From an uncultured Anaerolineales bacterium (lineage in GTDB: Bacteria > Chloroflexota > Anaerolineae > Anaerolineales > Villigracilaceae), in NCBI GenBank assembly GCA_937928015.1, contig CALFXA010000271.1:1-25493 (forward strand): a stretch of 25,493 nt of DNA, in the 5' to 3' direction. This document shows, in pieces, positions 2,612 through 7,570 of the stretch (position 1 is the first letter of the stretch; the number at the start of each line of letters is the position of its first letter). The notes under the pieces were generated by a model. It did not search any database, was not told the DNA's origin, and saw only the letters and a program-made list of their open reading frames with translations. Position numbers and translations under genes: made by a program.

Positions 2612-3448
2612 TTAATATGGTTTTAAATTTGCATTCGCTTCCAGCAGCAAAGATTGCAACTTTTCTTTATGCTTCAATTCTTCTGCGGCGACCACGCGCA
2701 GGGTGAGACTGCGCAGGAAGTTGCGGACGTTGAAGTAGGCGAAACTGCGCTCTTCATTCATCCAGGCGCCCTTCCAGCCGTCGGCGCTGGGAGTTGTCAG
2801 GCTGGTGAGCCAGCCCTGGACGGCGGCTTCGTCAAGCAGATCCCGTTCCAGGGCGGTCAGCGTGGCGCGGACGAGGCGGTCGTCCTCGCCGTGGATGTAG
2901 ATCCAGTTCGTAGCGTGGACCAGCTTGGCCGAGATTCCGTTCAGGATCAGGAGCAGGTCATTGGCTCGTAGGTGCGGACTGCGCGCCAGCACGAACAGCA
3001 GATCGGCGGTGTGGGCCAGGGCGTGGCCCCAGCCCTTTTCGCCTGTATAGCCGCGCGGGTCGGCTTCCGATTCGAGATAGGCCAGCCCACGGGTGAGCAG
3101 GTTGTGGACCTCGTCCGCATCTAGGAAGGGCTGCTGGTTGTCGTGATTGACGATCTCGGCCAGGCACAGCACCGAGAAGGCGCGCAGGTACAGGCTGTCG
3201 TCGCCGACCTCGCCCAGGCCTTCGTTGAGGTTGGCCAGCAGGCGCATGATGTACGTGCGCACCAACTCGGGTGGATACAGTCCCTTGTCGAGCCAGGTGG
3301 CGAAGACCTCGTAGGCGATGGTGTCGCGCAGGTCGGGGTCGGGGCTGCCGAGGTAGACGAACAACTCCTCGGTCAGGGTGAAGACGTCCTGCCCTTCGGG
3401 GACGGCGAACTCGTTGTTGCGGATGTCGAGCCAGAATTGTTTGTTCAT
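2612..3448 (-). CDS. DUF2785 family protein
   Basis: A soluble protein of 278 residues, with no signal peptide and no membrane span. The middle contains GEKGWGHALAHTADLLFVLARSP, the most recognisable part of DUF2785, followed by a helical repeat-like C-terminal half ending in LRSLTLRVV and a charged tail. The biochemical function of the family is unknown. Its ATG (3448-3446) overlaps the TGA of the ABC ATPase (3447-3445) in an ATGA arrangement, so its translation is probably coupled to that ATPase. That suggests a job linked to the exporter, but this is inference. It ends a few bases before the folded repeat element. Confidence 0.85.
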   Translation of the reverse strand: MNKQFWLDIRNNEFAVPEGQDVFTLTEELFVYLGSPDPDLRDTIAYEVFATWLDKGLYPPELVRTYIMRLLANLNEGLGEVGDDSLYLRAFSVLCLAEIVNHDNQQPFLDADEVHNLLTRGLAYLESEADPRGYTGEKGWGHALAHTADLLFVLARSPHLRANDLLLILNGISAKLVHATNWIYIHGEDDRLVRATLTALERDLLDEAAVQGWLTSLTTPSADGWKGAWMNEERSFAYFNVRNFLRSLTLRVVAAEELKHKEKLQSLLLEANANLKPY

Positions 3449-4434
3449 GTCGGATTCGCTTCCTGATAAATTCTTGCAATGACTTCTTCCAGCGGCGGGT
3501 CGGAGATGGTGATGTCGACCACGTCGCCTGCTTCGGTGAGGTGTGCGAGCACTTTCTGGACGGGCGTCTGGTGCGTGTCGAAGCGCAGTTTGACGCCGTA
3601 GTGGCCGACCTTGAGCACCTCCACGCCGTCGAGGTGGAAGTCACGCGAGACCTGTTCGGCGTAGCGCACCTCCACCATCTTGCTGGCCAGGTATTTGCGC
3701 TTGAGGTTCGAGACCTTGTCTTCGTACACGATCTGTCCGTGGTTGACGATGATGACGCGCTTGCACATGGCTTCCAGGTCGCCTGCGTCATGCGAGGTGA
3801 GTAGCACGCCCACGCCTTCCTCCTGGTTCATGCGGCGGATGGCGTCGCGGATGTGTTGTTTGGCGACCACGTCCAGGCCGATGGATGGCTCATCGAGCAG
3901 GAGCAGCTTCGGGCGGTGAAGCAGAGAGGCGGCCACCTCGCAGCGCATGCGCTGTCCGAGTGAGAGCTTGCGCACGGGCGTCTCCAACAGGTCCTGGATC
4001 TCGAAGGCCTCAGACAGGAATCCGATGCGGCGCTTGACGTCTTTGTCATCCAGTTCGTAGATCTTGCCGAACAACATGAACGTGTCGATGGCGGGCAGGT
4101 GCACCCACAACTGCTGGCGCTGACCGAAGACCGTGCCGATCTGATAGGCCAGCTTCTGACGGTCCTTCCAGGGCGTGAAGCCAAGCACGCTGGCCTCACC
4201 CGCGCTGGGATGCAGGATACCTGTCAGCATCTTGATCGTGGTGGATTTTCCCGCCCCATTGGGACCGATGAACCCGAGCAGTTCGCCCGCTTCCATCTCG
4301 AACGAGAGGCCGCGTACCGCTTCGACGGTGCTGTACTGCGGGCGGACGAGGGCGCGCAACGACCCGCCCAGCCCTGCGGCTTTGCGCTTGGCTCGGAAGG
4401 TTTTCTGGAGGTTGGTGACGGTGATGGAGGACAT
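3445..4434 (-). CDS. ABC transporter ATP-binding protein
   Basis: A 329-residue nucleotide-binding subunit that should power the two ABC-2 permeases encoded downstream. Visible motifs in order are Walker A GPNGAGKS (57-64), a Q-loop region TVFGQRQQLW (101-110), the signature LSLGQ (157-161), Walker B LLLLDE (177-182), D-loop GLD (186-188), and the switch His in LLTSHD (His215). All catalytic positions are intact. The N-terminal insertion GLGGSLRALVRPQYS before EAVRGLSF and a C-terminal domain of about 90 residues are typical of ATPases paired with ABC2_membrane_6 permeases. The minus-strand upstream region has a possible -10 box TACAAT (4477-4472) but no clear -35 box or Shine-Dalgarno sequence. 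Confidence 0.93.
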   Translation of the reverse strand: MSSITVTNLQKTFRAKRKAAGLGGSLRALVRPQYSTVEAVRGLSFEMEAGELLGFIGPNGAGKSTTIKMLTGILHPSAGEASVLGFTPWKDRQKLAYQIGTVFGQRQQLWVHLPAIDTFMLFGKIYELDDKDVKRRIGFLSEAFEIQDLLETPVRKLSLGQRMRCEVAASLLHRPKLLLLDEPSIGLDVVAKQHIRDAIRRMNQEEGVGVLLTSHDAGDLEAMCKRVIIVNHGQIVYEDKVSNLKRKYLASKMVEVRYAEQVSRDFHLDGVEVLKVGHYGVKLRFDTHQTPVQKVLAHLTEAGDVVDITISDPPLEEVIARIYQEANPT

Positions 4435-4490
4435 GTTGGTTATCAGTAATCAGCGAACAGTAGTTGTGTTTATTGTACAGGAATTTCGCG

Positions 4491-4616
4491 CTGAGCGGAG
4501 AGGCGGTATTCTTTCGCCTCGTAGTCGACATCGTACCCGGAATGGGTAAGCGCAATGGATGCAAGATTGCCGCACTTCGACTGCGGCCTTCGACAAGCAC
4601 TCAGGCCTCCGCTCAG
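4491..4616. repeat. Composite inverted-repeat element upstream of ABC operon
   Basis: The arms CTGAGCGGAG (4491-4500) and CTCCGCTCAG (4607-4616) are perfect 10-bp inverted repeats. A small central hairpin TACCC-GGAAT-GGGTA lies at 4534-4548. The right half (4571-4620) is itself a palindromic unit with CGCACT/AGTGCG ends, and that unit is interrupted by another one, with GGCCT/AGGCC ends, at 4585-4607. The overall plan and the 126-bp length mirror the element at 2479-2603. No protein is encoded. It lies between the promoter region of the ABC ATPase gene and the duplicated YgjP 3' end. Confidence 0.75.
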
Positions 4617-4622
4617 TGCGTA

Positions 4623-4680
4623 TTATTCCAAATGTAATTTGTTCCCGTGTTCCTTCAACCAGCGGACATGGACCTTGAAG
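4623..4680 (-). pseudogene. Orphan 3' end of a YgjP-like metallopeptidase gene
   Basis: Read on the minus strand, this stretch encodes FKVHVRWLKEHGNKLHLE and a TAA stop (4625-4623). The intact YgjP-like gene upstream ends in FKVHVRWLKEHGNKLHLK. The first 48 nt (4680-4633) differ from 5605-5558 at one base, a synonymous Glu codon change. The last codons differ more at DNA level but still encode His-Leu-Glu versus His-Leu-Lys. It is therefore a real, slightly diverged gene end and not a chance match. It is in the same frame as the hypothetical gene just upstream, separated only by that gene's TGA and two codons. Confidence 0.85.
4633..4680 (-). repeat. 48-bp direct repeat, copy A
   Basis: It is identical to 5558-5605 at 47 of 48 positions; the one difference is T4650 against C5575. 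The two copies bracket the AT-rich hypothetical gene and lie 925 bp apart. This copy is the outer, gene-less one. Confidence 0.95.
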
Positions 4681-4685
4681 CTATC

Positions 4686-5501
4686 TCATGGCTTTTGACC
4701 ATATAGATCAATATAGTTTCCGTATCCTTTCCAGTCTTGAAGATCGGCCTCTCGAAAATAACCAGGAACATCTCTTTGCGCTGCTAATCGTTCTTTTATG
4801 GTGCTCGGTTTGAACAACAAAACATTATTGATGGGACTGGATGGTGTAATTTGTGCATTTTCAAGATTTGTTTCCTGCCAAAAAAGATCAATTTCAAATC
4901 CTCGCTTGGGATAGTACAAGGTAGCACACAGCGGGATAGTAGAAATAGAATGTCCTGGGCACACTTCAAAAGCAAACTTTTCTGGCGGACCGAATCTATT
5001 GATCACCTTTTCAAGAGGCATCTCATGGAGATTTGAATAACTATTTAGAGAAATGCTGTCGACAACCCAATCTTCCCACGATACGCGCACAGAAATTGAT
5101 TGCCCTTTATCAAGAGCCCAACCCCAATTTGTGGAACCAAAATCTCTATCATTGTTATCCATTTGAGGCGGGAGTTCTATCAGCCCCGGGGAAACAATTA
5201 ACTTGATTACCCCCGTGGTAACATTTAACTTTTGAGTCGCTTCCATGCTTGTGGTCAGGCCAGGTGTAATGCCCTGCCAGCAAGGCCATGTACAGGAAAT
5301 GTCCCCAAAAATGTTGTTTACCGCTGTGGCGGAAAACGGCTCAAAAGCAAGTGTCGGAACCCTGGATGGCACCTGAGTGGAATAAGGCTTGGTATGGGAT
5401 GCGGCCAAAACTCGCATAGAGTACAAGACAGTCGCTGAAAGGAGGATAAACCCCAGCACGATCACAATTCTGGAAACAAACACTACTTTATTGTTTTTCA
5501 T
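4686..5501 (-). CDS. Hypothetical membrane-anchored extracytoplasmic protein
   Basis: A protein of 271 residues with one N-terminal membrane segment at about residues 9-30 (VSRIVIVLGFILLSATVLYS), acting as an anchor or uncleaved signal. The rest should lie outside the cytoplasm. Its most distinctive motif is CTWPCWQGITPGLTT at about residues 70-84; I associate this Cys-x-x-Pro-Cys-Trp-x-Gly-Ile pattern with hypothetical proteins of Anaerolineae. Two further Cys, in VCPGH and PLCATLYY, may form disulfides. A good ribosome binding site AGGGAG lies about 6 nt before the ATG. The gene is clearly more AT-rich than its neighbours and is flanked by 48-bp direct repeats, both signs of acquisition. 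No function can be assigned. Confidence 0.85.
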   Translation of the reverse strand: MKNNKVVFVSRIVIVLGFILLSATVLYSMRVLAASHTKPYSTQVPSRVPTLAFEPFSATAVNNIFGDISCTWPCWQGITPGLTTSMEATQKLNVTTGVIKLIVSPGLIELPPQMDNNDRDFGSTNWGWALDKGQSISVRVSWEDWVVDSISLNSYSNLHEMPLEKVINRFGPPEKFAFEVCPGHSISTIPLCATLYYPKRGFEIDLFWQETNLENAQITPSSPINNVLLFKPSTIKERLAAQRDVPGYFREADLQDWKGYGNYIDLYGQKP

Positions 5502-5528
5502 AATAGACTCCCTTTCATGTTGATAGTG

Positions 5529-5547
5529 GTCACGCTATAAGCGTGAC
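5529..5547 (-). terminator. Hairpin directly after the YgjP-like stop codon
   Basis: GTCACGCT (5529-5536) and AGCGTGAC (5540-5547) form a perfect 8-bp stem with a 3-nt loop. It begins at the base after the YgjP-like stop codon. No T-run follows on the minus strand, so it may be a weak terminator, an mRNA stabiliser, or a boundary structure of the cassette. Confidence 0.4.
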
Positions 5548-6231
5548 TCACTTAAGGTGTAATTTGTTCCCGTGCTCCTTCAACCAGCGGACATGGACCT
5601 TGAAGTTTGGCAAAATATCTGCCACCAGTTTCCAGAACTTCGGTCCGTGGTTGTGGTGGACGGTGTGAGCCAATTCGTGGACGACGACGTAATCCACGAC
5701 TTCAGGCGGAGCCATCAGCAGACGCCAGGTAAAAGCCAGTTCGTTTTTGGAGTTGCACGATCCCCAGCGTGTGCGAGCGGAGGTGATGCGCAGTCCGCGA
5801 TAGGTGAAATGGTGCAGGCGGGCGAAGTGCTCAAGGCGGTCTTGCAAATAAATGCGGGCCTGTTCCTTGTACCAGTTCTCGAAGTGACGTTTTGCATTCG
5901 GTTGGGCATTTTGAGCCAGCGTGAAGCACTGACCGTCGAATTGCAGGGCGGGCCGTTGGGCAGGGACCAGGGTCAACGGGTAGGCCCCTCCCAGCCAGAG
6001 GAACGAGTCGCCTGTTTCGAAAGTGTGGCGTGGTCGCTGTGCAGCGCGCGCCTTCAGCTTGGACTGGGTCTTGTGAACCCAATCTACCTTTTGTGTCAGG
6101 AATTCCTGAATGGCCGAGTTGGCCAGCTTCAACGGCGCGCGGACGGTCAACGTGCCGTCCGCGTCGATCACTAGTGCCAGCGTGCGCCGCCGCGAGCGCA
6201 CCAGATGATATTCAGGCAGGGGAGAGGTCAT
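5548..6231 (-). CDS. YgjP-like zinc metallopeptidase (DUF45 family)
   Basis: A soluble 227-residue protein of the YgjP/DUF45 family, related to SprT and wss-type metallopeptidases. The conserved C-terminal half shows RWGSCNSKNELAFTWRL (about 155-171), APPEVVDYVVVHELAH with the zinc motif HELAH (185-189), and the third probable ligand in NHGPKFW (His195). The N-terminal half has the usual RRRTLALVID beta strand start. The physiological substrate is not known. The last 48 nt are duplicated at 4633-4680. A possible -10 box TATGAT lies 12 nt before the ATG on the minus strand, with no Shine-Dalgarno sequence, so the transcript leader would be very short. The gene is divergent from tgt across a repeat-filled gap. 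Confidence 0.92.
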   Translation of the reverse strand: MTSPLPEYHLVRSRRRTLALVIDADGTLTVRAPLKLANSAIQEFLTQKVDWVHKTQSKLKARAAQRPRHTFETGDSFLWLGGAYPLTLVPAQRPALQFDGQCFTLAQNAQPNAKRHFENWYKEQARIYLQDRLEHFARLHHFTYRGLRITSARTRWGSCNSKNELAFTWRLLMAPPEVVDYVVVHELAHTVHHNHGPKFWKLVADILPNFKVHVRWLKEHGNKLHLK

Positions 6232-6243
6232 GCGGGGAAGTCT

Positions 6244-6249
6244 ATCATA
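6244..6249 (-). promoter_or_regulatory. Possible -10 box of the YgjP-like gene
   Basis: TATGAT on the minus strand lies 12 nt before the ATG at 6231. It borders the palindrome starting at 6250. No convincing -35 box was found. Confidence 0.35.
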
Positions 6250-6313
6250 AGACCTCGGAGGTCCGCTATGCCGAGCCCACGTTGGAGAGTCCTCGTGCGG
6301 ACCTCCGAGGTCT
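6250..6313. repeat. AGACCTCSGAGGTCT palindrome pair
   Basis: AGACCTCGGAGGTCCGC (6250-6266) is a perfect 17-bp inverted repeat of 6297-6313. Each arm is itself nearly palindromic. The loop is 30 nt. The segment lies between the divergent YgjP-like and tgt genes. The same core recurs at 6412-6426 and, as a variant, at 14869-14901. Confidence 0.8.
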
Positions 6314-6318
6314 GGTCT

Positions 6319-6384
6319 GAAACGAGTCTTAACACGATTCCAAACGAGTTATAACAGGATTGGAAATGAGTCTTAACAGGATTT
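6319..6384 (+). repeat. Three tandem 22-bp direct repeats upstream of tgt
   Basis: Three adjacent units of exactly 22 bp lie at 6319-6340, 6341-6362 and 6363-6384. The shared pattern is AAAYGAGTNWTAACASGATT. Units 1 and 3 differ at three positions, and unit 2 differs from each of them at about five. They sit between two palindromes in the tgt upstream region. A regulator-binding array or a fragment of a larger dispersed repeat are both possible. Confidence 0.7.
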
Positions 6385-6406
6385 AAATCCTCTGCTGAGA
6401 AGGTGA

Positions 6407-7570
<1,164 letters not shown>

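Follow-up and report, generated by a model that had tools for sequence, protein, structure and literature searches.

A 925-bp unit containing a single gene lies at the 3' end of a YgjP-like zinc metallopeptidase gene in an uncultured Anaerolineales bacterium (contig CALFXA010000271.1; the whole stretch of DNA analysed, 25,493 nt in length, is referred to as the window). The unit is absent from both of the close relatives found, is bounded by a direct repeat of the gene end whose two copies continue into different tails, has left the native end in its outer position, and contains no integrase. It is explained here, with moderate confidence, as a module composed of a gene end and a passenger gene that would have been inserted by recombination at the YgjP 3' end, displacing the native end.

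The direct repeat (4633-4680 and 5558-5605) comprises 48 nt with one mismatch at a spacing of 925, and ranks first in length and similarity among the three listed direct-repeat families of at least 32 nt in the window. A 20-nt probe from position 4630 had no further match in the window and none in 100 shuffles, with up to three mismatches allowed. The inner copy is the 3' end of the YgjP-like gene and reads NKLHLK-stop, the outer copy reads NKLHLE-stop, and both stops are in frame. The first-pass annotation had described the recurrence with one difference and had taken both copies for true gene ends, as is the case. It had also described one AT-rich gene between them, and this description holds: the passenger gene is the sole open reading frame (ORF) between the copies, has a GC content of 43.6% compared with 59.4% for the window, is preceded by a ribosome-binding-like site, and shares its frame with the outer copy, 5 nt short of which it stops (Table 1). 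An integrase was correctly said to be missing from the 925-bp unit, the one ORF of which has no family match. Elsewhere in the window, the gap between YgjP and tgt (6231-6425) contains the palindromic AGACCTCGGAGGTC at three places as well as three 21-nt units at 22-nt spacing, both REP-like, and the DUF2785 gene (2612-3448) overlaps a long same-strand ORF in another frame (2958-3791).

Table 1. Features of the YgjP locus and of the inserted unit, in window coordinates.
Feature	Position	Strand	Description or basis
YgjP-like zinc metallopeptidase gene (host)	5548..6231	-	227 aa, HELAH motif, ends HLK-stop; PF01863, E 7.1e-61
Inner 48-nt copy of YgjP 3' end, within the complete gene	5558..5605	-	repeat comparison
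Inner tail, comprising the final codons, the stop and the palindrome GGTCACGCTNNNAGCGTGAC; same type of allele as behind YgjP in L002/G002	5528..5562	-	
Ribosome-binding-like site AAAGGGAG of the passenger gene	5508..5515	-	sequence read directly
Passenger gene	4686..5501	-	271 aa, N-terminal hydrophobic helix, motif CTWPCWQGI...DWKGYG
5-nt junction, passenger stop to displaced host end	4681..4685	-	
Displaced native YgjP end (48-nt copy and HLE-stop codons), L001-type	4623..4680	-	flank collinear with L001
Native downstream flank as far as the ABC transporter gene	4435..4622	.	

The closest genomes found are those of the loci L001 (JACPVF010000016.1) and L002, which together represent the whole genus of L001 in the collection searched. 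The identity of YgjP to that of the window is 88% in L001 and 77% in L002. In L001, YgjP ends in HLE-stop and passes directly into sequence matching the window below position 4623, without an insert; this is the empty site for which the first-pass annotation had proposed to search. The insert is absent from L002 too, and the presence of empty sites in both close relatives supports the claim of an insertion at the YgjP 3' end with retention of the complete gene. The window is 88.9% identical to L001 over 3838 bp starting at the outer copy, and 87.9% identical over the 5725 bp that end with the inner copy. The 300-bp flank behind the outer stop is 77% identical to L001, and the inner side matches L001 over 12 bp only. 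The outer flank is collinear with L001, which is empty, so the outer copy is the native end of the resident gene and still occupies its original position. The outer tail is common to the window and L001. The sole other match of the 35-nt inner tail is the YgjP tail of G002/L002, with 4 substitutions in 35 positions (1.62 Mb searched on both strands, up to 8 substitutions allowed). Since L001 is the nearer relative and the inner tail is of the L002 type, the preferred reading on sequence grounds is that this tail was brought in with the passenger, the insert having arrived as the YgjP tail of another allele plus one gene. The earlier claim of a replacement end is upheld in that one end is a replacement, and is refined by the flank and the allele, which identify the outer end as native and the inner tail as the import. 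Relative to L001 the 48-nt copies have 5 and 6 differences, relative to L002 they have 9 and 10, and four bases common to both copies are absent from L001 and L002, which counts against the favoured explanation. Being nearly identical to each other yet unlike the relatives, the copies suggest either a very close donor or homogenisation. The YgjP of L002 (5001-5681) has an in-frame TAG at codon 35 and is either a pseudogene or affected by a sequencing error.

In the proposed origin, a segment with the YgjP 3' tail of another allele and one gene would recombine at the resident YgjP 3' end. The product would contain, in order, a complete YgjP with the imported tail, the passenger, and then the resident's last codons and tail, displaced. 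A single crossover inside the common gene end, by a circle or a tandem module of gene end and passenger, would give this topology. The donor would be closely related and carry a tail of the L002 type, and the recombination would most likely have been carried out by the homologous machinery of the host. For transposed plant genes bordered by repeats, homologous integration of a circle has been proposed (PMC2869330). Neither a circle nor a donor with a YgjP end and the passenger was seen, which is counted against this explanation.

Some other genes in related bacteria are likewise followed by small integrase-free insertions. About 1.4 kb separate FolD in G002 from a second FolD end (141-144 bp, 90%), and in G001 FolD directly adjoins the gene that sits behind the outer FolD copy in G002. 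The outer flank is 77% identical between the two genomes over 333 bp, and the inner flank matches over 9 bp only. Identity to G001 is 91.0% for the inner FolD end and 87.2% for the displaced end; with the inner one marginally nearer to G001, these values do not show that the FolD end was imported, and a plain duplication followed by drift would also fit. A paired stray FolD end is present in 1 of 152 genomes. Behind a membrane-protein gene of G002 (no Pfam match) there are two members of the passenger family, and the end of this gene has two further copies, of 58 bp (78%) and 130 bp (89%), the longer of which precedes a third, unrelated small gene. The orthologue in G001 ends in IYRVSGK-stop, as does the outer copy in G002, and the inner copy in G002 ends in GPR-stop; the polarity is taken from these last codons, since the sequence beyond either copy has little similarity to G001. 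Other small ORFs are found at this site in G001. An M55 D-aminopeptidase gene has three more copies of its 3' end around a minus-strand RHS array (L120 9967-10866; G001:C15 311521-326163), and a lone copy of this gene end is located at G002:C19 163802-163882.

In G002, a single DUF559 gene separates a type IIG restriction gene (PF07669; PADLOC type IIG) from its displaced 120-bp end. The last 71 aa of the restriction gene were sought in 152 family genomes and yielded 92 match rows, namely 56 full-frame rows (55 genes, two rows belonging to one gene) and 36 short rows; the IIG typing was made on the G002 gene itself, the other genes being its relatives. A short stray end was located 82-1777 bp downstream on the same strand in 10 of the 55 full-frame genes, and upstream within 5 kb in none of the 55. 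Seven of the ten loci were inspected (all except those of G019, G077 and G145). Four of these contain cargo ORFs, identified as DUF559, DUF2726, RhuM and, in the fourth, two ORFs of which the one scanned had no family. The cargo-free loci are those of G032 (687 bp, in which no ORF reaches 60 aa), G106 (82 bp) and G016 (109 bp). The distance from the cargo stop to the recognised displaced end is at most 7, 9, 22 and 32 nt in the four cargo loci, the corresponding distance in the window being 5 nt. A subset of seven cargo proteins of other hosts was scanned, and none of the seven is a recombinase. A REP-type transposase-like gene (by eye) lies just past the displaced end in the G002 restriction locus and is counted against the favoured explanation; the labels glycosyltransferase-like, transposase-like and restriction-type were assigned to other genes by eye as well. 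At G100:C1 1048378-1050286 (L193), two lone type IIG-like gene ends are located between restriction-looking genes (by eye).

Gene-end duplications were also surveyed in 1.58 Mb of G001 and G002 (1180 called genes), pairs covering at least 60% of the gene being dropped as paralogues. A partial copy of the 3' end was present downstream of 6 genes and a partial copy of the 5' end upstream of 3 genes, a modest excess; the 3' cases include the M55 gene, with two copies in this survey, and the weak cases 181243 (resembles a repeated domain), 236689 (41 bp) and 273159 (no ORF between). One 400-kb contig of the survey contained no end duplications. The repeat length varied by host from 41 to 208 bp. 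In comparator genomes, of which 200 kb each were surveyed, the numbers of genes with 3' versus 5' copies were 0 versus 1 in G100 and 1 (doubtful) versus 1 in G401.

The passenger protein has no Pfam, NCBIfam or PADLOC family and no significant match in Foldseek. The predicted structure consists of an N-terminal helix (residues 4-36) followed by an alpha/beta part, which on this model would be located outside the cell. The context of the family was assessed from 58 other family ORFs in 40 regions, picked non-randomly from the top and the clusters of the listed matches. Fragmentary genes, a pair of copies with identical scores and loci truncated at a contig edge were retained among them. Of the 58, 23 are directly preceded by a gene that carries a zinc-peptidase motif, compared with 7 of 759 in the control, under differing criteria: the upstream ORF of the 58 was the longest stop-to-stop frame ending -120 to 400 bp away, and the control consisted of called genes. 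RHS signatures occur in 19 of these 23 upstream genes, and an RHS gene with a zinc-peptidase motif is the commonest context (19/58), both labels being short ad hoc patterns. Pfam searches of six upstream proteins gave sub-threshold zinc-peptidase matches only, in five of the six; RHS repeats were recognised in one. The passenger's close relative in L057 follows an RHS gene, and those of L055 (two) and L056 do not. The window passenger follows YgjP, unlike the family members located directly behind RHS tip-encoding genes. The first-pass annotation had proposed a search for other CTWPCWQGI genes flanked by YgjP ends, and none was encountered: 0 of the 58 ORFs had a YgjP-like motif upstream (judged by the HExxH motif only). 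As judged from sequence and gene context, the passenger is probably an orphan immunity-type gene, its family being the putative partner of RHS proteins that bear zinc-peptidase-like tips. The putative benefit of the passenger here would be protection against a neighbour's RHS protein with a zinc-peptidase-like tip. In L083 (1419-2117), a family member lies between the copies of a 135-bp direct repeat of 86% identity, which leave 13 nt before its start and 7 nt after its stop.

A linear allelic fragment carrying YgjP and the passenger is a possible, though less probable, source of the same arrangement. Such a fragment would have recombined homologously in or upstream of YgjP and would have been joined illegitimately 48 nt into the resident end, leaving the displaced end as a scar. 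The joint GATAG/CTTCAAGG is free of microhomology visible by eye, and the lengths of the displaced ends differ between hosts, both of which speak for a linear fragment, as does FolD, where the inner end is no more foreign. Precedents in the accessible literature are a Helicobacter duplication with one homologous and one non-homologous junction (PMC4615327) and the 'insertion with long target duplication' known for restriction genes. However, the short distance between cargo stop and displaced end, seen five times, would call for selection or luck, and the downstream-only placement at restriction genes (10 versus 0) is not predicted without selection. The single crossover of a module explains the topology, the compact joints and the stacking, and is favoured over the linear fragment.

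Movement in trans, as suggested by the first-pass annotation, would require site-specific integration by an integrase or transposase encoded elsewhere, with the gene end serving as attachment site, like e14 at icd. This is improbable. The end architecture is the same as that of icd/icdC, where the displaced native end icdC in the e14 record is 165 bp long with 92.7% identity, but the unit consists of one ORF without family match, the scanned cargo proteins of other hosts include no recombinase, the host ends are unrelated and the repeat lengths differ among them. The closest published pattern is integrase-free; of the original interpretation, the 3'-end insertion, the restored gene and the absence of an integrase are retained, and the movement in trans is not. 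Decay of a tandem duplicate, in which a second YgjP behind the passenger lost everything except its end, is very unlikely. It would yield an identical final sequence, but no remnant of YgjP lies upstream of the 48 nt, the passenger stop almost abuts the outer copy, and the outer end with its flank is collinear with relatives that have one YgjP match. An assembly artefact is scarcely credible, since the copies differ within the repeat and in both tails, similar architecture is found in independent genomes, and the passenger protein is listed on 5 contigs, although the junctions themselves are not thereby covered.

A general integrase-free cassette economy in these Chloroflexi is rather doubtful and is put forward tentatively: cassettes of a replacement 3' end and one or two small defence or immunity genes would enter gene ends by single crossover and stack there, linking housekeeping genes, type IIG genes and RHS arrays. 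If gene-end modules do carry single defence or immunity genes with no recombinase in the module, the arrival of lone accessory genes behind housekeeping genes would become traceable, and displaced gene ends would be a marker for seeking new defence and immunity families. The type IIG relatives, with their downstream displaced ends, are a ready test set.

The arrangement was compared with known systems as described in the accessible parts of the cited reports; no report of gene-end cassettes in Chloroflexi was found in the open-licence literature so available, which is weak evidence. The minimal mobile elements of Neisseria are likewise small cassettes without mobility genes between conserved genes, and homologous recombination is credited there (PMC3082526). 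Their definition, as given there, omits a gene-end duplication. At the window site no alternative cargo was seen, both relatives being empty. Transposed Arabidopsis genes resemble the window in that a moved gene lies between direct repeats of host sequence, but they show no gene-end allele difference in the accessible account (PMC2869330). Orphan (displaced) Rhs-CT/immunity modules contain displaced gene-end fragments with an immunity-type gene between them (PMC3967940), and the family of the passenger sits in such displaced-end arrays. The host in the window is YgjP and not RHS, and the insert has no toxin tip, unlike the modules as described there. The nearest precedents are two. One is the type of insertion of restriction genes named 'insertion with long target duplication' after Nobusato et al. 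(2000) (PMC1643837, PMC3154945, PMC3031569, PMC3874152), the other e14 at icd. The former is similarly recombinase-free, with a long direct repeat and an empty relative; its repeats are reported as variable and on the order of 100 bp, and restriction genes are concerned there as type IIG relatives are here. It differs from the window, as far as described, in that the window cargo is no restriction gene, the repeat is a gene 3' end, and the two ends bear different tails, so that one tail came with the cargo and a plain target duplication is not what is found. Prophage e14 at icd of E. coli K-12 likewise leaves the host gene complete through a replacement 3' end and displaces the native end (PMC6379469), but is about 15 kb long and carries intE, whereas the window unit has 925 bp, one gene and no integrase. 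The window case thus departs by one defining feature each from insertion with long target duplication (the plain duplication) and from e14 at icd (the integrase).
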